From Pleomorphomonas diazotrophica (GTDB taxonomy: Bacteria; Pseudomonadota; Alphaproteobacteria; Rhizobiales; Pleomorphomonadaceae), in assembly GCF_002844595.1 (NCBI RefSeq), contig NZ_PJNW01000021.1:1-38521 (forward strand): 38,521 nt of DNA, in the 5' to 3' direction. Below the pieces are notes generated by a model. That model saw nothing but the letters and a program-made list of their open reading frames with translations, made no database searches and was not told where the DNA came from. Of this stretch, positions 8,848-35,847 are shown piece after piece. How positions within the stretch are numbered: position 1 is the stretch's first letter; each line of letters starts with the position of its first letter. The position numbers and the translations under genes are program-made.

Positions 8848-10227
8848 TCACTCCCCCTGCTGGATCGGGCGGCTCTGAGCGAAGCCGAGAGCCAGGATCA
8901 TCATCATCATCATGACGATGGCCGGGATCTGCAAGCTGAAGTCGACCAGTGAATGGACACCGCCGGCCAGCACAACACCGGCGGCTGCCGCCGGTATCAT
9001 CCAGTCCTCGCGGCGTACCGCAGCCACCGCGGTGGTTCCAGCGAGCAGGAGTACCGACAATACCACGGCCATCGTGGCAGGGATGCCGAGTTCGGCGGCC
9101 AGTTCAAGATAGAGGTTATGAGCGGCGTCGAAGGTCACGTCGGGGCTGATCGGATCCGATTTGACCGCCCTGAAAGCGTCCTCATAGGTTCCACCGCCGT
9201 AGCCGGTCAGCGGTCGCGCCGCGATGAGACCGAGCGTCTGTTCGTAGACCGCCAGCCGGATATCGGCGTCTCGGTCGACGGTGGCCATGCGCTCGAACAG
9301 GATGCCGCTGGTATTGGCGAGCACGGCACCTGCGACGAGGCCGGCGACGATCATTACACCGGCCAGGATGCGCCGGGCGCCCGTCGATCTGAATACGGCG
9401 ATCAGGGCGATGAGGCCGGCCCCCAATGCGGCGACGAACATGCCCATTCGGGAGTGCGAGAAGGCGAGTGCCAGGCCGATCAGGGCGAGCGGCGCCACGT
9501 TGAAGCCCAACTGGACCAGAATCCGGCTCAACCCCGAGCGTGAAACGTCCTCTTCGTCGGTGCCGAAGATCAGGGCTACACCCATGATGGCACCGAAGGC
9601 GGCAAAGGTCGCAAAGCTGTTGCGATTGACGAAGACGCCAGTCGCGTCGCCCTGATAGGCTTCCTTGGGCAGGAACAGCAGGACATCGCCGAAAAAGGTC
9701 AGCGAGGCGAGCGCGATCAATGCATGTGCGGCGATGCCCAGATAGACCGCGCGGAACAGAATCTTGGCCCGTCGCTTCTCAACCGCCACCTGAAGCGCCA
9801 GCACGAAAAACAATGCATAGGTCAGATAGCGCATCAGCATGTCGAAGGTGGCGCCCGGCCCGATGGTGATCCGGCCGGCTCCATCCGACAGCGGTGACAA
9901 TGCCGCCCATTCAGGCGCCGCCGCGAGGTCGAGCGGCAGAAGGGTCACCAGCATCCAGATGATCACAAGGCCGAACAGGATGACCGGGATGGCGAAGTTG
10001 GACAGCGGCAGGCGCGGCCTGACGTGGCCGCGATAAAGGCCGACAGCGTAAAACAGGCCGATCACCGCGACGACGGCGGCATAGAGCATGTAGAAAAAGG
10101 CTCGAATGCCGCCCATGGGCAGTGGCGCCAGAAGCGCTGTCGCCACCAGGGCCCAGCCGAGATAGTCATGGCCTTTCGACCGGCGGGACATACTGCTCCG
10201 ATGCACCCTGTGCTGACGATTGGCCAC
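8848..10227 (-). CDS. O-antigen ligase/polymerase-like membrane protein (Wzy_C family)
   Basis: A 459-residue polytopic membrane protein with about ten to twelve hydrophobic helices (for example LGWALVATALLAPLPMGG near residue 22). The region around residues 325-375 has the family's periplasmic loop pattern: TLGLIAARPLTGYGGGTYED, then FDAAHNLYLELAAELGIPA, the H-N-x-x-L-x-L-A-x-E-L-G block of O-antigen ligases and polymerases. Such proteins join or polymerise lipid-linked glycans on the periplasmic face. The start is either the GTG at 10227 (AGGAGG ten bases upstream) or the ATG at 10191 (GGAG close by). There are no glycosyltransferases next to it, so it is an orphan here. Whether it acts on lipopolysaccharide, exopolysaccharide or a protein is open. 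Confidence 0.85.
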   Translation of the reverse strand: MANRQHRVHRSSMSRRSKGHDYLGWALVATALLAPLPMGGIRAFFYMLYAAVVAVIGLFYAVGLYRGHVRPRLPLSNFAIPVILFGLVIIWMLVTLLPLDLAAAPEWAALSPLSDGAGRITIGPGATFDMLMRYLTYALFFVLALQVAVEKRRAKILFRAVYLGIAAHALIALASLTFFGDVLLFLPKEAYQGDATGVFVNRNSFATFAAFGAIMGVALIFGTDEEDVSRSGLSRILVQLGFNVAPLALIGLALAFSHSRMGMFVAALGAGLIALIAVFRSTGARRILAGVMIVAGLVAGAVLANTSGILFERMATVDRDADIRLAVYEQTLGLIAARPLTGYGGGTYEDAFRAVKSDPISPDVTFDAAHNLYLELAAELGIPATMAVVLSVLLLAGTTAVAAVRREDWMIPAAAAGVVLAGGVHSLVDFSLQIPAIVMMMMMILALGFAQSRPIQQGE

Positions 10228-10397
10228 GCTCGGCGATCCTCCTCAAAGACGGCGGCACTCTAGCGATTTCGCCGGTCGGGAGCTAGAGGATCCATCTTGA
10301 AAGTTGCACCCTTCCCGATGGCAGGCAAGCGGGTCGAAACAACGGCTTATGGCGCGCCTTTTCCCCCTTTTTCCTCAGGCATGCACAGACGGGCCGA

Positions 10398-11264
10398 CTA
10401 TCCCTCTCGTAGGGCGCCGGCCGCCTTCAACGCGGCCGAGGCGCGATTCTCGACACCGAGTTTCGCGTAGATCTGTTCAAGATGCTTGTTGACCGTGCGT
10501 GGAGAGAGGCCAAGGATCTCGCCAATGTCCTTGTTGGTCTTGCCGCGGCCGATCCAGAGCAGCACCTCCGCCTCTCGTGCTGTGAGACCGAACCGGGACC
10601 GCAGAAGCTCGGCATCGCCCGCTTCGCTACGCGCGAGCCGATAGAGGCGTTCGCCCGGTCCAGCGGCGCCCAAGGGTGCCAGAAGAAGCGGCGGGGCGTC
10701 CGGTATCGCAACCTCCAGAGGCCCGCCGTCATCCGCTGCCGCCATCTCGACCGCACCGGCAATGCCGAGACTGTCGATCAGCCGGGCTGCTTGTGGCGTT
10801 GCCCAGACGATGCGGCCGTCGGCGTCCAGCGCCACGAGGTGACGTCCCGCCGCGTCGAGGGCCGCCTGAGCCGAGAGATTGGCCCGGGCATTGGCGAGAT
10901 GTACGCGGATGCGCGCCCTGAGTTCGTCGAGGTCGATCGGCTTGGTGAGATAGTCGACACCGCCGGAGGCGAGGCCGCGGACAATATGCTCGGTCTCGCT
11001 CAACCCGGTCATGAAGATCACCGGTACATGGGCGAGCGCCGGCAGAGCTTTCAACAACCGGCAAGTCTCGAAGCCGTCGATCTCCGGCATCACCGCGTCC
11101 ATCAGCACGACGTCCGGCGTCACTCGACCAGCGATGGCAAGCGCCTGCCGACCGGACGTGGCGACCAGCACGATCACGCCGTCCGCCTCCATGGCTTCGG
11201 TGAGGAAGCCGAGCGTCTCGGGACTGTCGTCGACGACGAGCACGGTATCGCGGGTCTGGGTCAT
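10398..11264 (-). CDS. LuxR-type response regulator (REC-PAS-like-HTH)
   Basis: A 288-residue DNA-binding response regulator. The receiver domain (about 6-122) has Asp12-Asp13, phospho-acceptor Asp56 (VVLMDAVMP), Thr86 and Lys108 (YLTKP), all intact. A middle segment (about 130-175) with HLVALDADGRIVWATPQAARL looks PAS-like and is unusual for NarL-type regulators. The C terminus (about 222-285) is a LuxR helix-turn-helix: LTAREAEVLLWIGRGKTNKD, then LGLSPRTVNKHLEQIYAKLG. The ATG overlaps the stop of the upstream transporter-kinase (ATGA), so the two are co-translated and very probably cognate partners. The divergent urt operon is the most likely target. The following 10228-10397 gap holds no gene I can support. 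Confidence 0.93.
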   Translation of the reverse strand: MTQTRDTVLVVDDSPETLGFLTEAMEADGVIVLVATSGRQALAIAGRVTPDVVLMDAVMPEIDGFETCRLLKALPALAHVPVIFMTGLSETEHIVRGLASGGVDYLTKPIDLDELRARIRVHLANARANLSAQAALDAAGRHLVALDADGRIVWATPQAARLIDSLGIAGAVEMAAADDGGPLEVAIPDAPPLLLAPLGAAGPGERLYRLARSEAGDAELLRSRFGLTAREAEVLLWIGRGKTNKDIGEILGLSPRTVNKHLEQIYAKLGVENRASAALKAAGALREG

Positions 11265-14200
11265 GAGGAGGTCATATCCTCGAGGGTGGCGGTGAAGCGG
11301 GCGAGATCGAAAGCGGCGAGGTGACTGCTGAGTGTCGCGATGGCGGCCGGGTCGGCATCCGTTTCGGCGAGGGCGGCGAGCTTGCCCTCCAGTCCGCGCA
11401 CGTAACCGATGGCGGCAAGCGATTTCAGTTCGGCGAGATCGGCGGCGGAGAATACCGCTGGCGATCCGGCCGATGTCGAGATCGCCGGCTCGCCGGAGCC
11501 GGTTTCGAGGAAGCTTATGCCGAGGTGGTGGCCGAGCCGATCGAGCAGGTCGGCAAGCGAAAATGGCTTGGCGAGCAGATCGTCATGACCAAGATCGCTC
11601 GCCGGCATGGCGCCGTCGCCGATGTTGGCTGAGAGCATGACGATGGGCGTCCGGACACCTTTGGTCCTGAGACGGCTGACCAGTTGCCAACCGGTCATGC
11701 CGGGCATGCGGATGTCGACGAAGAGGATGTCCGGCCGGGCCGTTTCCATGAGGGCGAGGCAGACCTCGCCTCCGTCCGCCGTCAGGACGGTGAACCCAAG
11801 GGGCGCCAGCATCTCCACCATCATGTCGCGGTGCTCGGCATTGTCGTCGACCACCAATATGGTGCGGCGAGACCCGACATAGCCGGTTACGGGGCGGTCA
11901 CCGTCGATGGCGGCGGCGCCGACCACGGCACCCAGCATCAGGCGGACCCGGAACGTGGTACCGGCGCCGGGCGCGGAGGTCATGGCAATGTCCCCGCCCA
12001 TGGTCTCGACGAGCAGGCGGGTGATGGTGAGACCGAGACCCAGACCGGGGATGGTGGTGGAAGCAGCGTGCCGGCCGCGCTCGAAGGGCTCAAACACACG
12101 TCCTTGGTCGTCCTCGGGGATTCCGAGGCCGGTGTCCGCCACCGTGAAGCGTGCAACCTGGTTTCGATAATCGACGCCGAGGGTCACGGTACCCTTCTCG
12201 GTGAACTTGATGGCGTTGGAGAGAAGATTGACCAGCACCTGGCGCAGACGCTTCTCGTCGGTTCGGACGACGGCTGGAAGATCGGCGGCGCGGCTGGCGT
12301 GGAAGGCAAGTCCCTTGGCTTCGGCTTGAAGTGCGAACATACCCTCGATCTGGTCGAGGAGATCGTGGATGCGGACATCCGTCAGGCGGATACGGAAACG
12401 CCCCGCCTCAATGCGGGAAATGTCTAGGAGGCCGTCGATCAGGCCGGACAGATGCTCGGCCGAACGCCGGATGACGCCGACGGCGTTGCGCCGCCCATCG
12501 GCAATGGCCGGGTCGCGTTCCAGGATCTGGGCGTAGCCGAGCACGGCATTGAGCGGGGTGCGCAGCTCATGGCTGAGACCCACGACATAGCGGCTTTTGG
12601 CGTCGCTCGCGGCCTCGGCCTTTTCTTTGGCTTTCTGCAGTTCGGCGTCGGTCCGCTTGTGCGCGGCGATCTCCTGGAACAGCGCCTGCGTCTGGCGCGC
12701 GCTCTCCTCCTCGGCGACGCCCCGCGAATCGCGGGCCAGCACGAAGAACCAGACGACGACACCGATCACCACCGAGAAAACGAAGAACACCACGGCGAGC
12801 ACACGACCGATGAGCACCGCCTCGCCCGGATGATCGACGGCGGCCTGACGATAGACGAACCACATGATGAGGCCCGACAGGGCGACCCATAGGGAGAGTT
12901 CGATCAGGTAGCGACCAAGGCGCGTGTTGGCTGCGGCGACGAGCGATGGTGGCAGCAGGCGCTCGAAAATCGTACGAGCCTGGGCGCCGAGCCGTGCCTT
13001 GGGTTTGCAGCGATCATGGCAGCGGGCGTCGAGCGAACAGCAGAGCGAGCAGATCGGCGCCTGATAGGCCGGACAGTAGGACATGTCCTCCGCCTCGAAG
13101 TCATGCTGGCAGACCGAACAGGTCAGCGTCGGCGCAAGGCTGTAGCTCCGACGCGGCTTGCGGGCCAGATAGAAACGTCCGTCCGTCAACCAGGCGATCA
13201 GCGGCGCCGTGGCGAAGGCGGCGACCAGCGCCACAAAGGGCGCAAAGGCCTCCGCCACCGAGCCGGCAATCCCGACGTGGGCAAGGAGACCGGCGACGGT
13301 GGCCACCGCCATCGCACCCACGCCAACCGGATTGACGTCCCAGAGATGCGCTCGCTTGAACTCGATGCCGGGTGGGCTGATACCGAGAGGCTTGTTGATC
13401 AGAAGGTCGGCCGAGATGGTCGACAGCCAGGCGACGGCGACGATGGCGAACACGGCGAGCGTCTGCTCCAGTGCCTCGTAGATGCCGATTTCCATCAGCA
13501 GCAGGGCGATGGAGACGTTGAACACCAGCCAGACGACGCGGCCGGGGTGGCTGTGGGTGAGGCGCGAGAAGAAGTTCGACCAGGCCAACGATCCGGCATA
13601 GGCGTTCATCACGTTGATCTTGAGCTGCGACACCACCACGAAGGCGGCGGTCAGCAGGTAGAGCCATGTTCCCTCCGGCAGCACGTAGCCGAAGGCGACG
13701 GCGTACATCCGGGCTGGCTCGGCGGCGTGCTCAATGGGAACGCCGCTCGAAAGGACGAGCACCGCCAGGAAGGAGCCGGCGATCATCTTGGGTACGCCGA
13801 GCACCACCCAGCCGGCGCCGGCGAGGAACACCGCGAGACGTCGCCGGCCGGAACCGGGCAGACGCGCCGGCAGGAAGCGGAGGAAATCGACCTGCTCGCC
13901 GATCTGGGCGGTGAGGGCCAGGATCACCGCACTCGCCGAGCCGAAGGCGACGAGATGGAAGCCGCCGCCTGATCCTCCGTCTCGTCCAGCGAAGGCCGCC
14001 CAATCGGAAAAGCTGGCGCCATCGGAAAAGGCAATGAAGACGAAGGGCAGGATGTTGAGCACGATCCAGATCGGTTGCGTCAGGATCTGGAAGCGGCTGA
14101 TCCAGGCGATGCCGTGGGTGACCAGCGGAATGACAAGAAGCGTGGAGACGACATAGCCGGCCCAGAGTGGCAGGCCGAGGGCCATCTCCAGCGCCGTCGA

Positions 14201-14611
14201 CATGATCGACGCCTCAATGGCGAACAGGATGAAAGTGAAGCTCGCGTAGATCAGCGAGGTGACCGTCGAGCCGATATAGCCAAAGCCTGCGCCCCGGGTC
14301 AGCAGATCGATATCGACACCGTGGCGGGCGGCCGTGCGAGCGATCGGCCAGCCGACGGCCAGCATGGCGAGGCTGGCCGCGACGATGGCGGCGACGGCAT
14401 TGACTGTGCCGTAGGAGAGCGTGATGGCGCCGCCGATCGCCTCCAGCGCCAGAAAGGAGATGGCGCCGATGGCCGTCTGCGCTACGCGCTCCTGCGACCA
14501 GCGCCGTGCCGACTTGGCCGTGAAGCGTAGCGCATAATCTTCCAGTGTCTCGTCGGCGACCCAACGGTTGTATTGGCGCCGGATCGGAATGATGCGCTGT
14601 CGCGCCGCCAT
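11261..14611 (-). CDS. NCS1-type transporter fused to hybrid histidine kinase
   Basis: An 1116-residue sensor with an unusual architecture. Residues about 30-480 form a polytopic nucleobase:cation-symporter-1 (purine-cytosine permease) domain with some twelve hydrophobic helices. Residues 498-535 hold eight cysteines, a probable metal-binding knuckle. Two more membrane helices (about 568-590 and 602-626) and a coiled coil (630-675) lead to a histidine kinase: H-box with His681 (GLSHELRTPLNAVLGYAQIL), N-box (NLLSNAIKF, 795-803), G1 (DTGLGIP, 826-832) and G2 (GLGLGLT, 856-862). A receiver follows with Asp922-923, phospho-acceptor Asp966 and Lys1015, then an ~80-residue helical tail. All catalytic residues are present. 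It overlaps its response regulator by four bases and is divergent from urtA. The transporter part probably serves as the ligand sensor, comparable in logic to SLC5-kinases such as CbrA; transport itself is possible. The ligand is unknown. Confidence 0.93.
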   Translation of the reverse strand: MAARQRIIPIRRQYNRWVADETLEDYALRFTAKSARRWSQERVAQTAIGAISFLALEAIGGAITLSYGTVNAVAAIVAASLAMLAVGWPIARTAARHGVDIDLLTRGAGFGYIGSTVTSLIYASFTFILFAIEASIMSTALEMALGLPLWAGYVVSTLLVIPLVTHGIAWISRFQILTQPIWIVLNILPFVFIAFSDGASFSDWAAFAGRDGGSGGGFHLVAFGSASAVILALTAQIGEQVDFLRFLPARLPGSGRRRLAVFLAGAGWVVLGVPKMIAGSFLAVLVLSSGVPIEHAAEPARMYAVAFGYVLPEGTWLYLLTAAFVVVSQLKINVMNAYAGSLAWSNFFSRLTHSHPGRVVWLVFNVSIALLLMEIGIYEALEQTLAVFAIVAVAWLSTISADLLINKPLGISPPGIEFKRAHLWDVNPVGVGAMAVATVAGLLAHVGIAGSVAEAFAPFVALVAAFATAPLIAWLTDGRFYLARKPRRSYSLAPTLTCSVCQHDFEAEDMSYCPAYQAPICSLCCSLDARCHDRCKPKARLGAQARTIFERLLPPSLVAAANTRLGRYLIELSLWVALSGLIMWFVYRQAAVDHPGEAVLIGRVLAVVFFVFSVVIGVVVWFFVLARDSRGVAEEESARQTQALFQEIAAHKRTDAELQKAKEKAEAASDAKSRYVVGLSHELRTPLNAVLGYAQILERDPAIADGRRNAVGVIRRSAEHLSGLIDGLLDISRIEAGRFRIRLTDVRIHDLLDQIEGMFALQAEAKGLAFHASRAADLPAVVRTDEKRLRQVLVNLLSNAIKFTEKGTVTLGVDYRNQVARFTVADTGLGIPEDDQGRVFEPFERGRHAASTTIPGLGLGLTITRLLVETMGGDIAMTSAPGAGTTFRVRLMLGAVVGAAAIDGDRPVTGYVGSRRTILVVDDNAEHRDMMVEMLAPLGFTVLTADGGEVCLALMETARPDILFVDIRMPGMTGWQLVSRLRTKGVRTPIVMLSANIGDGAMPASDLGHDDLLAKPFSLADLLDRLGHHLGISFLETGSGEPAISTSAGSPAVFSAADLAELKSLAAIGYVRGLEGKLAALAETDADPAAIATLSSHLAAFDLARFTATLEDMTSS

Positions 14612-14766: not shown

Positions 14767-14782
14767 TACGTCAATCGACGTA
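14767..14782. promoter_or_regulatory. Palindrome TACGTC-N4-GACGTA upstream of urtA
   Basis: A perfect 6-bp inverted repeat with a 4-base spacer (AATC), 90 bp before the urtA start. LuxR/NarL/FixJ-type regulators commonly bind short palindromes with TAC/GTA half-sites, so this is the better candidate for activation of urtA by the adjacent response regulator. I could not fix a promoter -10 with confidence. Confidence 0.4.
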
Positions 14783-14871: not shown

Positions 14872-16164
14872 ATGTCGCAGATCATCGATCGGCGTCGCAC
14901 GACGCTTGCTGCCGTTCTCGGCGCGCTTCTCGCTTCCACGGCGTCCGGTTACGCCGCCGATGACACCATCAAGGTCGGCGTGCTGCATTCGCTGTCGGGC
15001 ACCATGGCCATTTCCGAAACCACGCTGAAGGACACCGTCCTCTATCTCATCGACGAGCAGAACAAGAAGGGCGGCGTGCTCGGCAAGAAGCTGGAGGCCG
15101 TGGTGGTCGACCCGGCGTCCAACTGGCCGCTGTTCGCCGAAAAGGCGCGCGAACTGATCTCGCAGGACAAGGTGTCGGTGGTGTTCGGCTGCTGGACGTC
15201 GGTCAGCCGCAAGTCGGTGCTGCCGGTGTTCAAGGAACTCAACTCGATCCTGTTCTATCCCGTTCAATACGAGGGCGAGGAATCGGAGCGCAACGTCTTC
15301 TACACCGGCGCTGCTCCCAACCAGCAGGCCATTCCCGCAGTCGACTACCTGATGAAGGAAGAAGGCGTGCAGCGCTGGGTGCTGGCCGGCACCGACTATG
15401 TCTACCCGCGCACGACCAACAAGATTCTCGAGGCCTATCTCAAGGCCAAGGGTGTTGCCGCCGACGACATCATGATCAACTACACGCCGTTCGGTCACTC
15501 CGACTGGCAGTCGATCGTCGCCGACATCAAGAAATTCGGCTCGGCCGGCAAGAAGACCGCCGTGGTCTCGACCATCAACGGCGACGCCAATGTGCCCTTC
15601 TACAAGGAACTCGGCAACCAGGGCATCAAGGCCGAGGACATCCCGGTGGTCGCCTTCTCGGTCGGTGAGGAAGAGCTGGCCGGCATCGACACCAAGCCAC
15701 TGGTCGGTCACCTTGCCGCCTGGAACTATTTCCAGTCGATCGACAACGACGCCAACGCCACCTTCATCGACGGTTGGCACAAGTTCATCAAGAACGACAA
15801 GCGCACCACCAACGACCCGATGGAAGCCACCTATGTCGGCTTCAACGCCTGGGTGAAGGCGGTGGAAGCGGCCGGCACTACCGACGTCGATCCGGTGATC
15901 GATACGCTGGTCGGCACCACCGTGCCCAACCTGTCGGGCGGCTACGCCACCATCATGCCGAACCACCACATCACTAAGCCGGTGCTGATCGGCGAAATCC
16001 AGGATGATGGTCAGTTCGACATCGTGTCGGAGACGGCGCCGGTGGTCGGCGACGAATGGTCGGATTACCTCGAAGGCTCCAAGGACCTGATCTCCGATTG
16101 GCGCAAGCCGCTGTCTTGCGGCAACTTCAACGTCGCCACGGGCAAGTGCGGCGGCAATTCCTGA
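14872..16164 (+). CDS. urtA: Urea ABC transporter, substrate-binding protein
   Basis: A 430-residue periplasmic binding protein that captures urea (or short amides) for the UrtBCDE importer. I start at the ATG at 14872, which has GGGGA seven bases upstream and gives a signal peptide ending near GYAADD; the open frame could extend 42 residues but lacks support. The signal carries an arginine-rich RRRTTLAAVL, so Tat export is possible. Diagnostic UrtA sequences are VGVLHSLSGTMAISETTLKD, VFGCWTSVSRKSVLPVFKEL and YTGAAPNQQAIPAVDYL. It heads the urtABCDE operon, and a strong hairpin after its stop probably raises its level over the membrane components. FmdD-type amide-binding proteins are close relatives, but the full urtABCDE order favours urea. 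Confidence 0.96.
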   Translation: MSQIIDRRRTTLAAVLGALLASTASGYAADDTIKVGVLHSLSGTMAISETTLKDTVLYLIDEQNKKGGVLGKKLEAVVVDPASNWPLFAEKARELISQDKVSVVFGCWTSVSRKSVLPVFKELNSILFYPVQYEGEESERNVFYTGAAPNQQAIPAVDYLMKEEGVQRWVLAGTDYVYPRTTNKILEAYLKAKGVAADDIMINYTPFGHSDWQSIVADIKKFGSAGKKTAVVSTINGDANVPFYKELGNQGIKAEDIPVVAFSVGEEELAGIDTKPLVGHLAAWNYFQSIDNDANATFIDGWHKFIKNDKRTTNDPMEATYVGFNAWVKAVEAAGTTDVDPVIDTLVGTTVPNLSGGYATIMPNHHITKPVLIGEIQDDGQFDIVSETAPVVGDEWSDYLEGSKDLISDWRKPLSCGNFNVATGKCGGNS

Positions 16165-16209: not shown

Positions 16210-16287
16210 GCACCGACATGTCCGCCGATCATCTCGACTCAAGCCGGTTTGACGGCGGCGACTCAAGCGGACCGAAACGGACTTGCC

Positions 16288-17904
16288 ATGAGTTTTTTGC
16301 GCCTCCTTGCCATCTGGGCGATCCTGATCCTCGGGCTTCAGCCGGCGCTGGCCGATCGCATCGCCGATGCCGATCTGGCGCCTCGCGTCGCCGCTCTCGG
16401 AAGCGGCGGCTTCGACGCGGCCGAACAGGCCATTGCCGATCTCGCCGGGACGGGCGACGACCGTGTGCCGACCATCCTCGACCGCCTCGGCGAAGGCGAG
16501 TTGATGGTGCGCAAGACCGACGGTGCGGTGTTCTTCGCCGAAAAGGCGGGCAAGGATTTTCGCCTCACCGATCCCGTGACCGGTGCCGATGCCGGTTTGG
16601 CGCCGAAGGCGACTCTGGAGAAGGTGAAGGTCAACAATCGCATCCGCCGCGCCATCGCCTCGGCGGTGGGAGCGCTGACGCTGATGAGCTCCGATCCCGT
16701 GGTGCGCCGGTCAGCGGCCGAAGCGGTGATGAAGTCGGCGGACGCAGCCGCCATTCCCGCGCTCGACAAGGCGATCGCCGCCGAGACCGTTGCCGATGTC
16801 CGTGCGGCCATGATGGCGGCACGTGCCACCGCTCTCCTCGCCTCCGACGCTCCCGAGGCTGACAAGGTGGCTTCCATCGCCGCCATCGCCGATTTCGGCA
16901 GCCGCGACGCCCTCGGCTTCCTGTCCGGCTATACCACCGCCGACGGCGCGGTTGGTGAGGCCGCCCGCAAGGCCGCGGCGGCGATCGAGAGCCGGCTGAT
17001 GCTGTGGGATATCGGCCAGAATCTTTGGTATGGCCTGTCGCTCGGCTCGGTACTGCTGCTTGCCGCCATCGGCCTCGCCATCACCTTCGGCGTGATGGGC
17101 GTCATCAACATGGCGCACGGCGAGATGGTGATGCTCGGCGCCTATGCGACCTTCACCGTGCAGGAGGCGATTCGTACCTTCTGGCCGGATCTTTTCGATT
17201 ACTCGCTTCTGATCGCGCTACCGGCCGCCTTCCTGACCGCCGCGCTGGCCGGCATCCTGATCGAACGATCGATCATCCGCTGGCTCTACGGCCGGCCGCT
17301 TGAGACGTTGCTCGCCACCTGGGGCGTATCGTTGATCCTGCAGCAGGCGGTTCGCTCGCTTTATGGCGCCAACAACCGCGAGGTCGGCAACCCCTCGTGG
17401 ATGTCGGGCTCCTTCGCCCTGGGTGACATCCAGGTTACCTGGACAAGGCTCTGGATCATCCTGTTTGCGCTCGCTGTGTTTCTGACGCTGATCGCCGTTC
17501 TGAAGCGCACCCGGCTCGGCCTCGAAATGCGAGCCGTGACCCAGAACCGCCAGATGGCCGCCGCCGTGGGCATCCGTACGCCTCTGGTCGACGCTTTGAC
17601 CTTCGGCCTCGGCTCGGGCATTGCCGGCCTTGCCGGCGTGGCGCTCAGCCAGATCGACAACGTGTCGCCCAACCTCGGGCGCGGCTACATCATCGACAGC
17701 TTCATGGTGGTGGTGTTCGGCGGTGTCGGCAATCTCTGGGGCACACTGGTCGGCGCGCTGACGCTCGGCGTCGCGAACAAGCTCCTGGAGCCCTATGCCG
17801 GCGCCGTACTCGGCAAGATCATCCTGCTGGTTGCCATCATCCTGTTCATCCAGAAGCGGCCGCGTGGCCTGTTCGCCCTGAAGGGCAGGGCGGTGGAGGC
17901 ATGA
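16288..17904 (+). CDS. urtB: Urea ABC transporter, permease UrtB with periplasmic N-terminal domain
   Basis: A 538-residue inner-membrane permease of the branched-chain amino acid/urea (LivH-like) family. I start at the ATG at 16288 rather than the TTG at 16249 because it opens a clean signal peptide (MSFLRLLAIWAILILGLQPALA). Residues about 23-235 form an alanine-rich helical domain, HEAT-repeat-like, that should face the periplasm; this extension is typical of many UrtB proteins but absent from LivH. From about 240 the permease core begins, with GLAITFGVMGVINMAHGEMV (262-281) and later FGGVGNLWGTLVGALTLG. It overlaps urtC by four bases (ATGA). Confidence 0.95.
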   Translation: MSFLRLLAIWAILILGLQPALADRIADADLAPRVAALGSGGFDAAEQAIADLAGTGDDRVPTILDRLGEGELMVRKTDGAVFFAEKAGKDFRLTDPVTGADAGLAPKATLEKVKVNNRIRRAIASAVGALTLMSSDPVVRRSAAEAVMKSADAAAIPALDKAIAAETVADVRAAMMAARATALLASDAPEADKVASIAAIADFGSRDALGFLSGYTTADGAVGEAARKAAAAIESRLMLWDIGQNLWYGLSLGSVLLLAAIGLAITFGVMGVINMAHGEMVMLGAYATFTVQEAIRTFWPDLFDYSLLIALPAAFLTAALAGILIERSIIRWLYGRPLETLLATWGVSLILQQAVRSLYGANNREVGNPSWMSGSFALGDIQVTWTRLWIILFALAVFLTLIAVLKRTRLGLEMRAVTQNRQMAAAVGIRTPLVDALTFGLGSGIAGLAGVALSQIDNVSPNLGRGYIIDSFMVVVFGGVGNLWGTLVGALTLGVANKLLEPYAGAVLGKIILLVAIILFIQKRPRGLFALKGRAVEA

Positions 17905-19046
17905 TTACGTCCTTCCTCATCAACAGCCTCGATCGGCGCGGACGCTTTGTCGTCGGACTACTCGTCCTGCTGGCTCTGCTGGTTCCGGCGGGCAACCTGC
18001 TGGTACCGGAGGCGAATGCCTTCCACGTATCGACCTACCAGCTCACCCTCTGCGGCAAGTATCTGACTTACGCACTCCTGGCGCTGTCGGTCGATCTCGT
18101 CTGGGGTTATTGCGGCATACTGTCGCTCGGCCACGGCGCCTTCTTCGCGCTCGGCGGCTATGCCATGGGCATGTACCTGATGCGGCAGATCGGAGCGCGC
18201 GGGGTCTATGCCGATCCGGTGCTGCCCGACTTCATGGTGTTCCTCAACTGGAAGGAACTACCCTGGTTCTGGCACGGCTTCGACATGGCCTGGTACGCCT
18301 TCCTGATGGTGATGCTGGTGCCGGGCGTCCTCGCCTTCCTGTTCGGCTGGCTGTCGTTCCGCAGCCGGGTCACCGGCGTCTATCTCTCCATCATCACCCA
18401 GGCGCTCACCTATGCTCTGCTGCTCGCCTTCTTCCGCAACGACATGGGATTTGGCGGCAACAACGGCCTTACCGACTTCAAGGATATCCTCGGCTTCCCG
18501 ATTCAGGCGCCGGGGACCCGCGCCGCATTGTTCGCCGCCTCGGCGTTGATGCTGGCGCTCGGCTTCGTCGTAGCATCGGCCGTCGTCCGCTCCAAGCTCG
18601 GCAAGGTGCTGGTGGCCATCCGCGATGCCGAGAGCCGTACACGTTTCATCGGCTACCGGGTCGAGCACTACAAGCTGTTCGTCTGGACGCTCAGCGCCGT
18701 GATGGCCGGCATCGCCGGAGCGCTCTACGTGCCGCAGGTCGGCATCATCAATCCCTCGGAATTCGACCCCGCCGCCTCCATCGAGGCCGTGATCTGGGTT
18801 GCGGTCGGCGGCCGGGGCACCCTCATCGGTCCGCTGATCGGCGCCGTGGCCGTCAACTTCGGCAAAACCTGGTTCACCGGCGTCCTGCCCGAGGTCTGGC
18901 TTTACGCACTGGGGGCGCTGTTCGTGGTGGTGACGCTGTTCCTGCCGCGCGGCCTCGTCGGTCTCTGGGACAGGGCAGTGACCGGACGGGCGAAGCCGGT
19001 AAAGGACGTGGACGGTTCCGAACGGCAGGCGGGAGAAGCGGCATGA
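17901..19046 (+). CDS. urtC: Urea ABC transporter, permease UrtC
   Basis: A 381-residue second permease subunit of the LivM-like family, which pairs with UrtB to form the membrane channel. Family motifs include LSVDLVWGYCGILSLGHGAF (about 60-80) and FFRNDMGFGGNNGLTDFKDI, as well as IEAVIWVAVGGRGTLIGPLI near residue 300. About ten hydrophobic helices are visible. Start and stop both overlap neighbours by four bases (ATGA at 17901 and at 19043), so urtB, urtC and urtD are translationally coupled. Confidence 0.96.
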   Translation: MITSFLINSLDRRGRFVVGLLVLLALLVPAGNLLVPEANAFHVSTYQLTLCGKYLTYALLALSVDLVWGYCGILSLGHGAFFALGGYAMGMYLMRQIGARGVYADPVLPDFMVFLNWKELPWFWHGFDMAWYAFLMVMLVPGVLAFLFGWLSFRSRVTGVYLSIITQALTYALLLAFFRNDMGFGGNNGLTDFKDILGFPIQAPGTRAALFAASALMLALGFVVASAVVRSKLGKVLVAIRDAESRTRFIGYRVEHYKLFVWTLSAVMAGIAGALYVPQVGIINPSEFDPAASIEAVIWVAVGGRGTLIGPLIGAVAVNFGKTWFTGVLPEVWLYALGALFVVVTLFLPRGLVGLWDRAVTGRAKPVKDVDGSERQAGEAA

Positions 19047-19795
19047 CCGACAAGGCGGAAGGCTCGCTCCTCTATCTCGACGACGTCTCGGTATCCTTCG
19101 ATGGCTTCAGGGCGATCAATCGCCTGTCACTGGTGCTGGAGCCCGGCGAGATGCGGGCGATCATCGGCCCCAATGGCGCCGGCAAGACGACGATGATGGA
19201 CATCATCACGGGCAAGACGCGGCCCGATACCGGCGACGTGCTGTTCGACGGCTCCGTCGACCTCACCCGCCTCGACGAGGCGGCCATCGCCAATCTCGGC
19301 ATCGGCCGCAAGTTCCAGAAGCCGACGGTGTTCGAGAGCCACAGCGTCGAGGACAACATCGCCCTGGCGCTGAAGAGCCGGCGGGGTGCCTTCGCAGCAT
19401 TGTTCCACCGTCGCTCGGCTGCCGAACAGGAGCGCATCGATGGGTTGCTCTCGACCATCCGCCTTGCCGACAAACGGCACCTTCTCGCCGCCCGTCTGTC
19501 GCACGGCCAGAAGCAATGGCTGGAGATCGGCATGCTGCTCGCCCAGGAGCCCCGCCTTCTCCTGGTCGACGAGCCGGCGGCCGGCATGACCGACGCCGAG
19601 ACGGCGGAAACGGCAATCCTGCTCAAGGAGATCGCCAAGACGCAGTCGGTGGTGGTGGTCGAGCACGACATGACCTTCGTCCGAGCCCTGGGCGTCAAGG
19701 TCACCGTGCTGCACGAGGGATCAGTGCTGGCCGAAGGCTCGCTCGATGCCGTGTCGGCGAACCCCAGGGTGATCGAGGTCTACCTCGGGCGGTGA
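19043..19795 (+). CDS. urtD: Urea ABC transporter, ATP-binding protein UrtD
   Basis: A 250-residue ABC ATPase. I start at the ATG at 19043, which overlaps the urtC stop; a much longer open frame upstream is only an alternative frame of urtC. Walker A is GPNGAGKTT (42-50), the signature loop LSHGQKQWLEIGML is the distinctive UrtD form, and Walker B is LLLVDEPAAGMTD, followed by the H-loop VVVEHDMTFV. It resembles LivG and powers urea uptake as a heterodimer with UrtE, which begins 13 bases downstream. Confidence 0.96.
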   Translation: MTDKAEGSLLYLDDVSVSFDGFRAINRLSLVLEPGEMRAIIGPNGAGKTTMMDIITGKTRPDTGDVLFDGSVDLTRLDEAAIANLGIGRKFQKPTVFESHSVEDNIALALKSRRGAFAALFHRRSAAEQERIDGLLSTIRLADKRHLLAARLSHGQKQWLEIGMLLAQEPRLLLVDEPAAGMTDAETAETAILLKEIAKTQSVVVVEHDMTFVRALGVKVTVLHEGSVLAEGSLDAVSANPRVIEVYLGR

Positions 19796-19808: not shown

Positions 19809-20504
19809 ATGCTGAACGTCGAAGCTGTCGACCTCCACTATGGTGCCGCCCAGGCGCTCAGGAAGGTATCTCTATCCGCCACCGCCGGGCGCGTCACGGC
19901 GGTGCTCGGCCGCAATGGGGTTGGAAAAACCTCGCTGATGCGGGCGATCGCAGGATTGCAGGCGATCTCCGGCGGCACGATCCGCCTCGATGGCGGGGAT
20001 CTCACCGGCCTTTCACCCTACGAGCGGGTACGGCGCGGGGTCGCCATCGTGCCGCAGGGGCGCGAGATCTTCCCCCTGCTGACGGTCGAGGAAAATCTCC
20101 AGACCGGCTTCGCCACGCTGAAACGGGCCGACCGCTACGTGCCCGACATGGTCTACGACCTTTTCCCGGTGCTCAAAGACATGCTGCGTCGTCGCGGTGG
20201 CGATCTCTCGGGCGGACAGCAGCAGCAACTTGCCATAGGCAGGGCGCTGGTGACGCGGCCACGTCTCCTCGTTCTCGACGAACCGACCGAGGGCATTCAG
20301 CCGTCGATCATCAAGGACATCGGTCACGCCATCACCTTCCTGCGCCGACAGGGTGACATGGCCATCGTTCTGGTGGAGCAGTACTTCGATTTCGCCAAGG
20401 AGCTCGCCGACGAGTTCGTGGTCATGGAGCGCGGCGAGGTGGTGATATCGGGCAGTCGCGAGACCATGGACGAGGAGGCGGTGCGCGGCAGGATCGCCGT
20501 GTGA
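19809..20504 (+). CDS. urtE: Urea ABC transporter, ATP-binding protein UrtE
   Basis: A 231-residue LivF-like ABC ATPase and the last transporter gene of the operon. Walker A is GRNGVGKTS (34-42), the Q-loop region contains VPQGREIFPLLTVEENL, the signature is LSGGQQQQLAIGRAL and Walker B is LLVLDEPTEGIQP. The typical UrtE phrase TEGIQPSIIKDIG is present. No urease structural or accessory genes follow within the window, so the intracellular fate of the imported urea must be encoded elsewhere. Confidence 0.96.
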   Translation: MLNVEAVDLHYGAAQALRKVSLSATAGRVTAVLGRNGVGKTSLMRAIAGLQAISGGTIRLDGGDLTGLSPYERVRRGVAIVPQGREIFPLLTVEENLQTGFATLKRADRYVPDMVYDLFPVLKDMLRRRGGDLSGGQQQQLAIGRALVTRPRLLVLDEPTEGIQPSIIKDIGHAITFLRRQGDMAIVLVEQYFDFAKELADEFVVMERGEVVISGSRETMDEEAVRGRIAV

Positions 20505-21122: not shown

Positions 21123-21539
21123 TTAAGCGGACGAGAGCGCGGGTGGGCGCGCGTGGCCGATGAGGATGTCGGCAACCGTGATTGTCGCGAGTTCGTCGCG
21201 CATGGCCCGATAAGCCTGGGCGCAGGCGCCAGCCAGTGGACAGTTTTCGCAGGCCCTGGCATCGGCGCGGCCGCAGACGCGCATGTCGTCTTCCGGCTCG
21301 AACAGGTCGATCACCGACAACACAGAAATTTCAGCGGCCGGCCGGCTGAGGCAATAGCCGCCGCCGCGACCGCGGCGGCCGACCAGAAGGCCGGCGCGGG
21401 CCAGAGCATTGCAGGAGCGGATGACGCGCGCCTCCGGCATGCCGAGCCGGTCGGCCATCTCCGGCAGCGTCACCGCCTCGCCATCGCCGCAGATCATCAG
21501 GATACGAAGGGCGCCGTGGGTCACGGCGTTGATTTTCAT
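21123..21539 (-). CDS. Rrf2-family transcriptional regulator divergent from cydABX
   Basis: A 138-residue winged-helix protein of the Rrf2 family, starting MKINAVTHGALRILMIC. The helix-turn-helix lies at about 20-50 (TLPEMADRLGMPEARVIRSC) and the wing at GRRGRGGGYCLSRP. Potential Fe-S ligands are Cys89, Cys97, Cys100 and Cys106 (VCGRADARACENCPLAGAC); one cysteine more than usual. A ribosome site GGAGG lies upstream of the start. It converges on the other Rrf2 gene with 28 bp between stops, and is divergent from cydABX across a 321-bp region, so cydABX is its most likely target. A palindrome overlapping its probable -10 suggests autoregulation. The cluster signal (O2, NO, iron) cannot be told from sequence. 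Confidence 0.88.
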   Translation of the reverse strand: MKINAVTHGALRILMICGDGEAVTLPEMADRLGMPEARVIRSCNALARAGLLVGRRGRGGGYCLSRPAAEISVLSVIDLFEPEDDMRVCGRADARACENCPLAGACAQAYRAMRDELATITVADILIGHARPPALSSA

Positions 21540-21556
21540 GGCGACCTTCCTCCAAA

Positions 21557-21575
21557 GGTATATTGACTGTATAGC
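21557..21575. promoter_or_regulatory. Candidate Rrf2 operator
   Basis: GGTATAT-TGACT-GTATAGC is an inverted repeat matching at 5 of 7 positions per arm, and it is AT-rich in a very GC-rich setting. It overlaps the candidate -10 of the Rrf2 gene and lies in the cydA divergent region, as expected for an autoregulating Rrf2 site. Confidence 0.4.
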
Positions 21576-21597
21576 TTTACATCGCTAGTTCTGTCCA
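21568..21597 (-). promoter_or_regulatory. Candidate promoter of the divergent Rrf2 gene
   Basis: On the minus strand TGGACA (21592-21597) serves as a 5/6 match to the -35 box and TATACA (21568-21573) as a 4/6 match to the -10 box, with an 18-base spacer. The start codon is about 30 bases further on. Confidence 0.4.
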
Positions 21598-21605
21598 TGT
21601 CGATT

Positions 21606-21645
21606 GTCGGAGGGGGAATCCGACGGTCCGCCGGTCTCAACCGGC
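21606..21645 (+). promoter_or_regulatory. Two tandem hairpins in the cydA upstream region
   Basis: Perfect stems GTCGGA/TCCGAC (21606-21611 with 21619-21624) and GCCGGT/ACCGGC (21630-21635 with 21640-21645, loop CTCA). They lie in the 321-bp stretch between the Rrf2 gene and cydA. If transcription starts upstream they form a structured leader. The rest of this stretch (to 21860) holds no gene I can support, although the cydA frame stays open back to 21765. Confidence 0.3.
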
Positions 21646-21860
21646 CACGGGGGTCGTAAAGATGGTGCTCGTTCCTGCCGTCGCTGTCGGTGTTCATCGC
21701 CGAAAGCGGGCGGTCGACGCTGCTCGTTCGTCCTCCGGATCGATGAGTTCTGCCCTCCGCCGCCTTGCTGGCGTCGTGGCGAGCCCTTGAGGAAGAACGC
21801 GGCGGCTCAGGCGCGACAGACGCGAGAGGGGTCGCCTTCGCTGAGAGGATGTCGGCCATC

Positions 21861-23444
21861 ATGTTCGATCAGACATTCGTGGAGTTGTCGCGCTGGCAGT
21901 TCGCCGCCACGGCAATGTACCACTTCATCTTCGTGCCGCTGACGCTGGGGCTCACCTGGCTGCTTGTCATCATGGAAACCGTCTATGTGATGACCGGCAA
22001 GGAAATCTACCGGGACATGACCAAGTTCTGGGGCAAGCTGTTCGGCATTAACTTCGCCTTGGGCGTCACGACCGGTCTCACCATGGAGTTCCAGTTCGGT
22101 ACCAACTGGTCCTACTACTCGCATTATGTGGGCGACATCTTCGGTGCGCCGCTGGCCATTGAAGGCCTGATGGCCTTCTTCCTCGAGTCGACCTTCATCG
22201 GTCTGTTCTTCCTCGGCTGGGAGAGGCTTACCAAGCGTCAACACCTCGCGGTCACCTTCCTGACGGCGTTGGGCTCCAACCTTTCGGCGCTCTGGATCCT
22301 GGTCGCCAACGGCTGGATGCAGAATCCGATCGGCTCCCTCTTCTCGCCCCAGACGATGCGCATGGAGATGCAGTCCTTCGCCGAGGTGCTGTTCAATCCT
22401 GTGGCCCAGGTCAAGTTCGTCCACACGGTCGCCGCCGGCTACACCACCGCGTCGATGTTCGTGCTCGGCATATCCGCTTGGTATCTGCTCAAGGGGCGCG
22501 ACGTCGCCTTCGCCAAACGGTCGTTTGCCGTCGCCGCCGGCTTCGGTCTTGCTTCCTGCCTTTCGGTGATCGTGCTGGGCGACGAAAGCGGCTATGAGCT
22601 CGGCGACGTGCAGAAGGTCAAGCTTGCCGCGATCGAGGGCGAGTGGGAGACCCAGCCGGCTCCGGCCCCCTTCAACCTGATCGGCTTCCCCTCGCAGGAG
22701 GAGAAAGCCACCCGTGGCGCGATCGAGATTCCCTATGTTCTCGGCCTGATCGCCACGCGCTCGCTCGACAAGCCGGTAGCCGGCCTCAACGACCTGCGCG
22801 AGGAGCATCTCGCCCGTATCCGCTCCGGCCAGGAGGGCTACGCGGCGATGATGAAGATCCGTGGTGGCGACACCACCCCGGAGACGCGCGCGGTCTTTGA
22901 CGCCCACGCCAAGGACATCGGCTTCGGCCTGCTCTTGAAGCAGTTCGTCGAGGATCCGGCCACAGCCACCGAGGAGCAAGTTCAGGCCGCCGCCGATGGG
23001 ACCATTCCCAAGGTCTGGCCGCTGTTCTGGGCCTTCCGCTTCATGGTCGGTTTCGGCTTCATCATGCTGGTCATCTTCGCCTCGGCTTTCTACGTCAGCG
23101 CCCGGCGCAGCCACGAGCAGAATCGTTGGCTGCTGAGGGCTGCGTTGTGGGCCATCCCGCTGCCCTGGCTTGCCTGTGAGCTCGGGTGGTTCGTCGCCGA
23201 GTTCGGCCGGCAGCCCTGGGCCATCGGCGAGGTGCTGCCGACCTTCCTCGGCACGTCGAGCCTGACGACGACCGATCTGATTTTTTCGTTGACCGGCTTC
23301 CTGGTGCTCTACACCGGCCTGCTGGTGATCGAGGTCTATCTGATGTTCAAGTTCGCTCGTCTCGGCCCGAGCTCGCTCGGCACCGGCCGCTATCACTTCG
23401 AGACCGAGATGCCGGAACCGATTCGCGTCGCAGCGGCAGAGTGA
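21861..23444 (+). CDS. cydA: Cytochrome bd ubiquinol oxidase subunit I
   Basis: A 527-residue haem-bearing subunit of the quinol-oxidising terminal oxidase, which reduces O2 to water with high affinity and no proton pumping. I start at the ATG at 21861 ([15 protein letters not shown], matching the E. coli start MLDIVELSRLQFA); an ATG four codons earlier touches the GAGAGG ribosome site and is less likely. His21 corresponds to E. coli His19. Near-identical blocks follow: [20 protein letters not shown] type (here [20 protein letters not shown]), [20 protein letters not shown] and [14 protein letters not shown]. The Q-loop is long, as in the E. coli (L) subfamily. cydB follows 10 bases later. 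Confidence 0.97.
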
Positions 23445-23454
23445 GGACACCACC

Positions 23455-24606
23455 ATGTTCGATTATGAAATCCTGAAGTTCATCTGGTGGATTCTGGTCG
23501 GCGCGCTGCTGATCGGTTTCGCCATCACCGACGGCATGGACATGGGCGTGGGCTCGCTTCTGCCCTTTGTCGCCAAGACCGACGCCGAGCGGCGGGTCGC
23601 CATCAATACGGTTGGCCCGCACTGGGACGGTAATCAGGTGTGGCTGATCACCGCCGGCGGCGCCATCTTCGCTGCCTGGCCCGCCGTCTATGCCGCAGCC
23701 TTCTCGGGCTTTTACATGGCGATGCTCCTGGTGCTGTTCGCCCTGTTCTTCCGGCCCGTCGGCTTCGACTATCGCTCGAAGCTCGACAGCCCGAAGTGGC
23801 GCAATGCCTGGGATTGGGGGCTGTTCGCCGGCGGTGCCATTCCGGCGCTGATCTTCGGCGTCGCCTTCGGCAACCTGCTGCAGGGCGTACCCTTCCGTCT
23901 CGATGAACTCCTGCGCGCCCATTACCAGGGCTCGTTTATCTTCGCCTTGCTGCCGCTGCTCAACCCCTTCGCGCTGCTGGCCGGCCTCATTTCGCTCGGC
24001 ATGCTCGTCGCGCATGGTGCCGTCTGGCTGCAGCTCCGCGCCTCCGGCGCAGTGGCGGCGCGGTCGCGGGCGTTGGCGGTTCGGCTGTCGCCGGTGATCG
24101 CGGTGTTGTTCGCCGTCGCCGGCGTCTGGGTGTGGCTCGGCATCGACGGCTATCGCATCGTGTCGCAGCCGCCGCTCGATGCCATGCCCAACCCGCTCAA
24201 CAAGCAGGTCGTGGTGGCGTCCGGGGCGCTGCTCGATATCTACACGACCATGCCGATCGCCATCCTTGCGCCGATCGTCGGTCTCCTCGGCCCGCTGCTG
24301 ACAGCTCTGCTGGCAAAAGTCGAGCGGCCCGGTTTTGCCTTCGTCACGTCGGCGTTCGGCATGGCGGGGATCATCGGCACGGCCGGCCTCTCGATGTTCC
24401 CCTTCGTGATGCCGTCGAGCCTCGATCCAAACTCCAGCCTGACCGTGTGGGACGCCACGTCCAGCCATTTGACGCTCAACGTCATGTTCTGGGCAGTCAT
24501 CATCTTCCTGCCGATCGTGCTCGCCTATACCGTCTGGTGCTACTGGCGGATGTGGGGACGCGTGACGGCGGAAGAGATCGATGCTCGTTCGCATTCGGCC
24601 TACTGA
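23455..24606 (+). CDS. cydB: Cytochrome bd ubiquinol oxidase subunit II
   Basis: A 383-residue polytopic membrane partner of CydA (E. coli CydB is 379). The start MFDYEILKFIWWILVGALLI and GFAITDGMDMGVG are signature sequences, followed by PHWDGNQVWLITAGGAIFAA, AFGNLLQGVPFRLDE and the C-terminal FPFVMPSSLDPNSSLTVWDA. It ends with the HSAY tail also seen (as HSLY) in E. coli. cydX starts 16 bases after its stop, so the three genes form one unit. Confidence 0.97.
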   Translation: MFDYEILKFIWWILVGALLIGFAITDGMDMGVGSLLPFVAKTDAERRVAINTVGPHWDGNQVWLITAGGAIFAAWPAVYAAAFSGFYMAMLLVLFALFFRPVGFDYRSKLDSPKWRNAWDWGLFAGGAIPALIFGVAFGNLLQGVPFRLDELLRAHYQGSFIFALLPLLNPFALLAGLISLGMLVAHGAVWLQLRASGAVAARSRALAVRLSPVIAVLFAVAGVWVWLGIDGYRIVSQPPLDAMPNPLNKQVVVASGALLDIYTTMPIAILAPIVGLLGPLLTALLAKVERPGFAFVTSAFGMAGIIGTAGLSMFPFVMPSSLDPNSSLTVWDATSSHLTLNVMFWAVIIFLPIVLAYTVWCYWRMWGRVTAEEIDARSHSAY

Positions 24607-24622
24607 GAGGGGAGAGCAGACA

Positions 24623-24727
24623 ATGTGGTATTTTGCCTGGATCCTTGGCGTTACGGCCGCGGCGGCAATTGGCGTGATCAACGTCATGTGGTTTGAGTTC
24701 CAGGACGGCCTCGACGCGTCCGAGTGA
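24623..24727 (+). CDS. cydX: Cytochrome bd small subunit CydX (YbgT family)
   Basis: A 34-residue open frame MWYFAWILGVTAAAAIGVIN continuing to VMWFEFQDGLDASE. The start MWYFAWILG is identical to E. coli CydX, and one transmembrane helix (about 4-22) is followed by a short acidic tail with the conserved Glu. A strong ribosome site (GAGAGGGGAGAG) lies just upstream. CydX binds CydA and stabilises the haems of the oxidase. The position directly after cydB is canonical. It is too short for most automatic gene calls. Confidence 0.95.
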   Translation: MWYFAWILGVTAAAAIGVINVMWFEFQDGLDASE

Positions 24728-24733
24728 ATAACC

Positions 24734-24755
24734 CCGGCGGCGATATCGCCGCCGG
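24734..24755. promoter_or_regulatory. Perfect 22-bp palindrome after cydX
   Basis: CCGGCGGCGAT followed directly by its reverse complement ATCGCCGCCGG, starting 7 bases after the cydX stop. It is GC-rich with no T-run, so it may be an mRNA end-protecting or attenuating structure that separates cydABX from cydDC, or a protein site. The gap up to 24930 has no other supported feature. Confidence 0.55.
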
Positions 24756-24930
24756 ACTCTTCAGGCCGGCTCGTCTTCTCCCGGCCTTTCAGAGCGGCCG
24801 GTACGGTCGTCCCACCCACCGTGCCGGCTGGCTCTTTTCTCGATCGCGCCCAAGTGAAGGCCACCGCCCTTGCGGATCCGATGGGCGCGTGGCAATCGGG
24901 CTTGCCATCTTCGTTGTGCCGTCCTTCCGC

Positions 24931-31182: not shown

Positions 31183-31189
31183 GACGGCC

Positions 31190-33961: not shown

Positions 33962-34845
33962 GCGGATCCTCCCTCCGGCGCCGAAAGCTGGCCGCAAAGG
34001 GCGATCAACGTTTCGGTTGCCGGCCGGTCGGTCCGCACCAGCATATGGCTCCAGCCTGGTCGGCAGGCGGCGACAAGATGCGCCCGGTGCTCCGCTCGGC
34101 TGGCGAGATAGGTCTCACGCCAGGCCTCGGCGCGGCCGGCGGTCAGTCGGGCGCCATTCTCGGGGTCGACGAAATCGACCCGACCGGTGAAGGGAAAGGT
34201 TTCCTCGATCGGATCGGCGATCTCGACGAGGTGGACGCGGCTCTCGAGCGTGGCAAGGTCGGCAAACAGCGCATCGCGTTCCGCCTGCGGTCCCAGGAAA
34301 TCGGAGACGAGCAGGATATCGTCGCGGCGGCGCATGATCGCCGGTGCGTGGTGCGCTTCGACGGCACCCAGCCGGGCGAGCTTCATGGCAATCACCTCGG
34401 CGCCGTCGCGCCGGCTGGTCGGCTCGGCGTCGCCAACCAGGCCGACGCGCTCGCCCGCCCGCGCCAGCAGCTCGGCAACTGCCAGGGCAAGAACCAGTGC
34501 GAGGTTGGCTTTGCTGGTGTTGGCAAGCTCGGAGCGGAAATCCATGGACGCCGAGAGATCGGCCCATAGCCAGACGGTGTGGGCATTTTCATGCTCGCGC
34601 TCGCGCACGTAGAGCGTCTCGTCGCGGGCCGACCGCCGCCAGTCGATGCCACGCATGGGTTCGCCGGACAGGAACGGGCGAAATTGCCAGAAGTCTTCGC
34701 CCGGGCCGGCCCGGCGGCGGCCATGCCAACCGGCGGCCACCGTCGCGGCCACCCGACGCGCCTCGATGAGGAGGTCGGGCAAGGCGGCGGCAAGGCTGCG
34801 GGCCGTAGCGACGCCGTTTGGCGTCAGGGCGTCCTGCCCCGTCAT
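33958..34845 (-). CDS. DUF58 domain protein
   Basis: A 295-residue protein with the DUF58 signature at about residues 51-100: DFWQFRPFLSGEPMRGIDWR, then RSARDETLYVREREHENAHT, then WLWADLSASM, the latter forming a VWA-like DxSxS metal-site motif. No membrane segment is seen. DUF58 proteins nearly always travel with MoxR ATPases and are thought to be their partners or substrates in assembling envelope complexes. It lies 3 bases after moxR and overlaps the next gene by four, so all are co-translated. Confidence 0.92.
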   Translation of the reverse strand: MTGQDALTPNGVATARSLAAALPDLLIEARRVAATVAAGWHGRRRAGPGEDFWQFRPFLSGEPMRGIDWRRSARDETLYVREREHENAHTVWLWADLSASMDFRSELANTSKANLALVLALAVAELLARAGERVGLVGDAEPTSRRDGAEVIAMKLARLGAVEAHHAPAIMRRRDDILLVSDFLGPQAERDALFADLATLESRVHLVEIADPIEETFPFTGRVDFVDPENGARLTAGRAEAWRETYLASRAEHRAHLVAACRPGWSHMLVRTDRPATETLIALCGQLSAPEGGSA

Positions 34846-34848
34846 GGC

Positions 34849-35847
<999 letters not shown>

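Follow-up and report, generated by a model that had tools for sequence, protein, structure and literature searches.

Kinase, regulator and urt genes at the locus

The 38,521-nucleotide stretch of Pleomorphomonas diazotrophica DNA analyzed here (contig NZ_PJNW01000021.1, below referred to as the window) carries a gene pair divergent from the urea transporter genes urtABCDE, which is considered here as a candidate sensing system for urea or related amides. It encodes an NCS1-type hybrid sensor histidine kinase of 1116 amino acids (aa) (11261..14611, minus strand), recognized by reading frame, Pfam, and fold, and a LuxR-type response regulator of 288 aa (10398..11264, minus strand) with the Pfam domains Response_reg and GerE. 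The two frames share 4 bp. Since the kinase starts with the ATG at 14611 and the urtA start was placed at the ATG at 14872, 42 codons inside a GTG frame, the gap between both genes is 260 bp. Coordinates and lengths agree exactly with a preliminary description of this DNA, in which a 1116-residue kinase frame overlapping a LuxR-type regulator gene was proposed to face urtABCDE across 260 bp. A PAS-like middle of the regulator, likewise proposed there, is not confirmed, Pfam finding no PAS domain in this protein.

All parts of the kinase are given on the minus strand. An NCS1-fold membrane domain (residues ~1-484; 13160..14611), identified by Foldseek/VIA and by stand-alone PF02133 homologues, is followed by an eight-cysteine module (residues 498-535; 13007..13120), a putative membrane hairpin with a long signalling helix (residues ~564-666; 12614..12922; from the secondary structure of the model), HisKA (residues 672-737, with His681) and HATPase_c (residues 784-893; together 11933..12598), a receiver domain (residues 918-1026, with Asp966; 11534..11860), and a C-terminal helical tail (11261..11500) recognized by invariant columns of the aligned tails. 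HisKA, HATPase_c, and Response_reg in the kinase as well as Response_reg and GerE in the regulator passed the Pfam cut-offs, which bears out the complete histidine kinase and receiver expected in one frame. Among the best 25 NCBIfam matches listed per protein only generic kinase or regulator models were present, all of them below cut-off. In an alignment of 57 kinases His681, Asn799, Asp826, Gly828, and Gly830 are invariant, and Asp966 is kept in 55, the kinases of L181 and L186 ending before this position. With HisKA, HATPase_c, receiver, and catalytic residues in one protein, the kinase is classed as a hybrid sensor histidine kinase. An HPt domain is not evident in the tail and was rejected, no invariant His being found among the aligned kinases. 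In the regulator, Asp12, Asp13, Asp56, Thr86, and Lys108 and the helix-turn-helix positions are each shared by 95% or more of the 57 aligned rows.

The cysteines of the module (positions 498, 501, 513, 521, 524, 525, 531, and 535) are all invariant in the 57 kinases. Among 299 Pseudomonadota genomes, a profile of the module matched 42 times, in 38 of them (E 0.001), and never outside NCS1-kinase places: all 42 lie in open frames of 894-1247 aa at NCS1-domain places or in the window, as compared by eye. Due to this coincidence, no other use of the module is seen in that sample. The top Foldseek row is a RING domain, which is non-significant (E 0.33).

All five urt genes are located on the plus strand: urtA (14872..16164; Peripla_BP_5), the predicted target, urtB (16249..17904), urtC (17901..19046), urtD (19043..19795), and urtE (19809..20504). 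They encode a binding protein of the Peripla_BP_5 type, two BPD_transp_2 permeases, and two ATPases, with A, B, C, and E assigned by Pfam and D read as a frame with matches in relatives, and this composition identifies the cluster as a predicted UrtABCDE urea transporter. No PF02133 match occurs in the own genome, which comprises 4.53 Mb on 40 contigs; a urease alpha gene of this genome lies on a separate contig, C6. The nearest named relatives found by genome contig search belong to Pleomorphomonas.

Gene neighbourhoods and a shared palindrome

A relative is encoded in 511 of 519 candidate stretches of genome contigs, far beyond chance. The N-terminal 534 residues were matched in 26 of 60 near-relative genomes, in 27 of 385 at the level of the class, and in 59 of 398 at that of the phylum, a few of these matches being stand-alone permeases (24-30% identity) or fragments. 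Two sets of loci were compared, i.e., a near-relative set of the best 80 of the 511 confirmed loci, which includes many close kin, and a wider set of 50 kinase-type loci fetched from the class and phylum matches, a part of those listed with closer relatives left out, which was reduced to 49 by dropping the contig end L188.

In all 80 near loci the regulator gene is situated directly downstream of the kinase gene, and in 76 UrtA is encoded upstream on the opposite strand, so that the linkage to urt anticipated in the preliminary description is conserved among these relatives. The distance between kinase and UrtA genes is below 700 bp in 42 of the 76 loci and above 1.7 kb in 31. UrtA was missed in L006, where the contig starts 8 bases before the kinase gene, and in the Ensifer loci L046, L051, and L076. 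In one Rhizobium locus (L016:7917-9944) a single gene encoding a PAP2 phosphatase domain together with an autotransporter-type repeat lies between the kinase gene and urtA. The pair is also present in L029 and L040, both from Rhizobium leguminosarum.

In the wider set the regulator gene is located downstream in 47 of 49 loci and the partner genes vary; FmdA, urease alpha, the zinc ribbon, CN_hydrolase, and UreJ were each assigned by Pfam from a single representative. A urt-like transporter, the UrtA of which is 34-41% identical to that of the window, is faced in 28 loci; FmdA accompanies it in 26 of these, whereas in L140 and L145 the contig ends too early. An FmdB-like zinc ribbon is encoded in 19 of the 28 loci and a CN-hydrolase in 10. 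Six loci face a true urtABCDE cluster, two of them past a porin-like gene, and a further six face urease genes; the kinases of the latter (L174, L177, L183, L184, L185, and L187) form a single group on a quick tree of the 57 kinases. The kinase gene closes a same-strand urt-urease run in three loci, and UrtA is found 7-9 kb off on the same strand in two. The last two loci with searched genes, L181 and L186, encode short kinases of 880 and 874 aa that contain the NCS1 domain and the Cys module but lack a receiver; FmdA lies ~5 kb away and no regulator match is found nearby. On the tree, in which 14 of 54 inner branches are weak, a minimum of 6 changes between urea and amide partners is required; with the amide label set against the remaining rows, 5 changes are already demanded by the well-supported branches.

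A dyad search of the divergent gaps returned one motif, TACGTCAnnTGACGTA, common to the urea and amide partner types. In the window the operator candidate TACGTCAATCGACGTA (14767..14782, no strand assigned) lies upstream of both genes, separated by 89 bp from the urtA ATG and by 155 bp from the start of the kinase gene. A score of at least 12 out of 14 against TACGTCAnnTGACGTA is reached by 50 of 72 gaps, compared to a maximum of 11 in 1440 mononucleotide-shuffled gaps. In 129 loci (the near-relative set of 80, whose members are not independent, and the 49 of the wider set; 2.72 Mb) 67 sites occurred at up to 1 mismatch and none of the reversed control pattern, and all 67 are situated between -60 and +600 of projected starts, namely of urtA (45), urtA-like genes (10), fmdA (4), and the kinase gene (8). 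The palindrome is confined to target promoters. At the same threshold a scan of 46 chosen kinase-bearing genomes gave 31 sites in 27 genomes, versus 9 sites of the reversed pattern; 25 of these sites precede a kinase, urtA, urtA-like, fmdA, or CN-hydrolase gene, and 6 are found on other contigs with no query gene within ~3 kb, except for a generic ATPase match in L214. In L207 and L208, where the kinase gene closes a urt-urease run, the site precedes urtA and is 11-12 kb away from the kinase gene. A looser core, TACG-N8-CGTA, occurs within 700 bp upstream of the kinase gene in 22 of the 49 wider loci, versus 0.42 expected from shuffles. Separate sites at each gene in L055 and L077, where kinase gene and urtA are more than 1 kb apart, suggest that the kinase-regulator operon is autoregulated. 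The urease-facing loci yielded no assignable palindrome.

The membrane domain, its pocket and the predicted circuit

The best fold matches of the N-terminal domain (residues ~22-484; Foldseek/VIA) are Mhp1 and CodB, followed at lower ranks by SLC5, Nramp, APC-type, and other LeuT-type chains. Six of ten stand-alone homologues of the domain match PF02133 at E 0.01, among them a protein of L189 that is 28% identical to the kinase domain. The assignment to NCS1 is based on this fold and on the linking homologues, direct sequence evidence having failed; both confirm homology to NCS1 transporters and uphold the NCS1 fold that was expected of the N-terminal part. The stand-alone permease gene of L189 (L189:5949-7442) is situated near a gene (9210-10343) for a UrtA-like binding protein of 26% identity, and this permease is perhaps kin of the transporter that gave rise to the receptor.

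The pocket was aligned using the 57 kinase domains, the 10 stand-alone homologues, 4 PF02133 proteins, Mhp1, and CodB. The equivalents of Mhp1 Ser312 and Thr313, which we take to form the Na2 sodium site, are Lys in all 57 kinases and Ile in 56 of them, respectively, the former being Arg or Lys in all 10 stand-alone homologues; an Na2 site of the NCS1 type thus appears to be missing. Asn is present at the Asn314 and Asn318 equivalents and Glu at the Gln121 equivalent in all 57 kinases. Regarding the two Mhp1 Trp residues which presumably stack on flat rings, the Trp220 equivalent is Leu in 56 of 57 kinases and the Trp117 equivalent is Phe in 43 and Leu in 14, including the window, the kinase of which thereby has Leu at both positions. 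From these positions we infer a sodium-independent pocket suited to a small polar ligand, a ring-shaped ligand being less likely. At residue 129 all 28 amide-type kinases have Phe, and 10 of the 22 urea-type kinases have Leu; at residue 397 Gly is found in 27 of the 28 amide-type kinases, and the urea-type kinases mostly have Ser, Met, or Cys. No pocket residue in the kinase alignment cleanly divides both types.

Considering these results together, it is fairly likely that the kinase is a transporter-derived receptor with its own local regulon, which senses a small amide and activates urtABCDE. Beyond the computed architecture, fold, linkage, and promoter-restricted palindrome, we infer a ligand, a lack of transport, a phosphate path, binding of the regulator to the palindrome, and a sign of regulation as follows. 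The NCS1-fold domain would bind a small amide, which would be urea here and either urea or an amide of the formamide type in relatives; binding would probably take place from the periplasmic side and be independent of sodium. The kinase core would be reached by a conformational change relayed through Cys module and membrane hairpin, and there His681 would be phosphorylated and pass the phosphate on to Asp56 of the overlapping regulator. The phosphorylated regulator would then bind TACGTCAnnTGACGTA ~95 bp upstream of urtA and activate urtABCDE, and probably its own operon as well.

Several observations weigh against this interpretation. With respect to the fold, the structure model of the kinase is moderate (pLDDT 65), a phmmer search of PDB with the N-terminal 504 residues and a profile of the 57 N-terminal domains against solved structures gave 0 matches each, and PF02133 exceeds its Pfam cut-off neither in the kinase nor in any of the 57 aligned domains. 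With respect to the regulon, the three Ensifer loci keep the kinase-regulator pair without urt, urease, or formamidase matches in the fetched DNA, and L149 and L152 contain none of the searched urea/amide genes there. Furthermore, 19 of the 46 kinase-bearing genomes and 67 of the 129 loci, including all six urease-facing and the three Ensifer loci, lack a site at up to 1 mismatch, and at up to 2 mismatches the own genome contains the motif once (14767-14782) and the reversed control 4 times, so that lone loose matches mean little. The ligand is a point of its own: one ring-stacking position stays aromatic (Phe) in 43 of 57 kinases, and the pockets of urea-linked and amide-linked kinases are nearly identical, which makes the specificity uncertain and would even fit a shared different cue.

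The NCS1 domain might instead be a working importer, the flux of which is read by the kinase. CbrA of P. putida has been reported to combine transport with kinase activity (PMC7096432) and to take up histidine (PMC7918813). For the present kinase this is unlikely, as all 57 kinases have Lys in place of the Na2 Ser, which, provided that the alignment is correct, would obstruct the sodium site, and as a dedicated ATP-binding cassette (ABC) importer is encoded alongside.

Ammonia is a product of both urea and amide breakdown, and it is conceivable that the kinase reads this product or a general nitrogen, metal, or redox cue (ammonium, Zn, Ni, thiol) via the Cys module, the NCS1 domain being an anchor only. 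The eight invariant cysteines and a pocket that barely varies with partner type are consistent with such a cue, but several pocket positions are invariant, the domain is 52-74% identical to that of the window across 505 residues in relatives, which exceeds the need of an anchor, and a single operator in the own genome suits a specific inducer over a general signal. We therefore deem this improbable. Sensing of a nucleobase, hydantoin, or ureide, with urt switched on within nucleobase nitrogen scavenging, is quite improbable: known NCS1 proteins carry such compounds, the fold is NCS1, the Asn318 equivalent is invariant, and the Trp117 equivalent is aromatic in 43 of 57 kinases, but the linked enzymes identified comprise urease, formamidase, and CN-hydrolase, in a survey of neighbours without a systematic search for nucleobase genes, Trp220 is replaced by Leu (56 of 57), and Gln121 by Glu (57 of 57).

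The preliminary description had proposed a nitrogen sensor of a ureide, nucleobase, or urea. The transporter-kinase fusion and the link to urt stand; the ligand shifts to urea or short amides because the neighbours are urt, urease, formamidase, and CN-hydrolase genes and both ring-stacking Trp residues are Leu in the window, one of them being Phe in 43 of 57 kinases. Nucleobases, hydantoin, and allantoin look less likely as ligands than urea or formamide-like amides. The operator candidate is an addition to that description.

Extending the amide-receptor reading, it is evenly balanced whether these kinases constitute a Pseudomonadota-wide NCS1-derived receptor family that is sodium-independent, non-transporting, and urea- or short-amide-sensing, with a private Cys module, perhaps RING-like and zinc-binding, and in many members a TACGTCAnnTGACGTA regulon of one or two operators. 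If so, bacteria would possess a dedicated membrane system for sensing urea and formamide, which would have been swapped repeatedly between urea and amide operons. In soil and water, urea and short amides rank among the major sources of nitrogen. The predicted circuit is complete (sensor, regulator, operator, targets), and its very small regulon would make the receptor directly testable and a possible biosensor part.

Elsewhere in the window, an O-antigen ligase-type (Wzy_C) membrane protein gene (8848-10227) adjoins the regulator gene. Genes for an Rrf2-type regulator, cytochrome bd subunit II, and two ABC exporter halves are clustered at 21123-28319, likely a cyd cluster, and a MoxR-type ATPase, DUF58, BatA/DUF4159, and a weak glutamine-amidotransferase match follow in a row at 29101-35847.

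Comparison with known systems

No characterised NCS1 kinase was found in the literature searched, most subscription papers lying outside that search, and no description of NCS1-kinase control of urea and amide genes was met with in it. The 2026 genome paper of Ectopseudomonas guguanensis G3 annotates a urtABCDE cluster, a LuxR-type two-component regulator, and a hybrid histidine kinase (PMC13296017), and from its locus tag fmdA appears to adjoin the urt cluster; the part available is confined to annotation and proposes no transporter sensor, operator, or ligand.

Compared to Mhp1 and CodB, the fold of residues ~22-484 and the Asn314 and Asn318 equivalents are kept, whereas the Na2 Ser/Thr is changed to Lys/Ile, the ring-stacking Trp residues are Leu in the window, and a kinase is fused. 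The system bears on the conversion of a transporter to a receptor, with a sodium site lost and a pocket conserved. Ks-Amt5 is likewise an uptake transporter turned sensor of a nitrogen compound, which reportedly binds without translocation, but has the Amt fold and senses ammonium (PMC5764959).

CrbS/CrbR, CbrA/CbrB, and RpuS/RpuR share with the present system a LeuT-type transporter domain fused to a kinase (PMC5715377, PMC9100948, PMC7918813, PMC13022988), and CrbS furthermore is a hybrid with a receiver, the LuxR-type regulator of which acts at an inverted repeat (PMC5715377). A HisKA-HATPase kinase with a LuxR-type regulator, as in CrbS and RpuS, is present here by Pfam. The SLC5/STAC kinases comprise an SLC5 domain of 13 transmembrane helices and STAC and target acetate, histidine, and pyruvate genes, in contrast to the best-matching NCS1 fold, eight-cysteine module, helical hairpin, and urea/amide genes described here. 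The kinase of the window would extend the transporter-kinase receptors to a second family of LeuT-type transporters.
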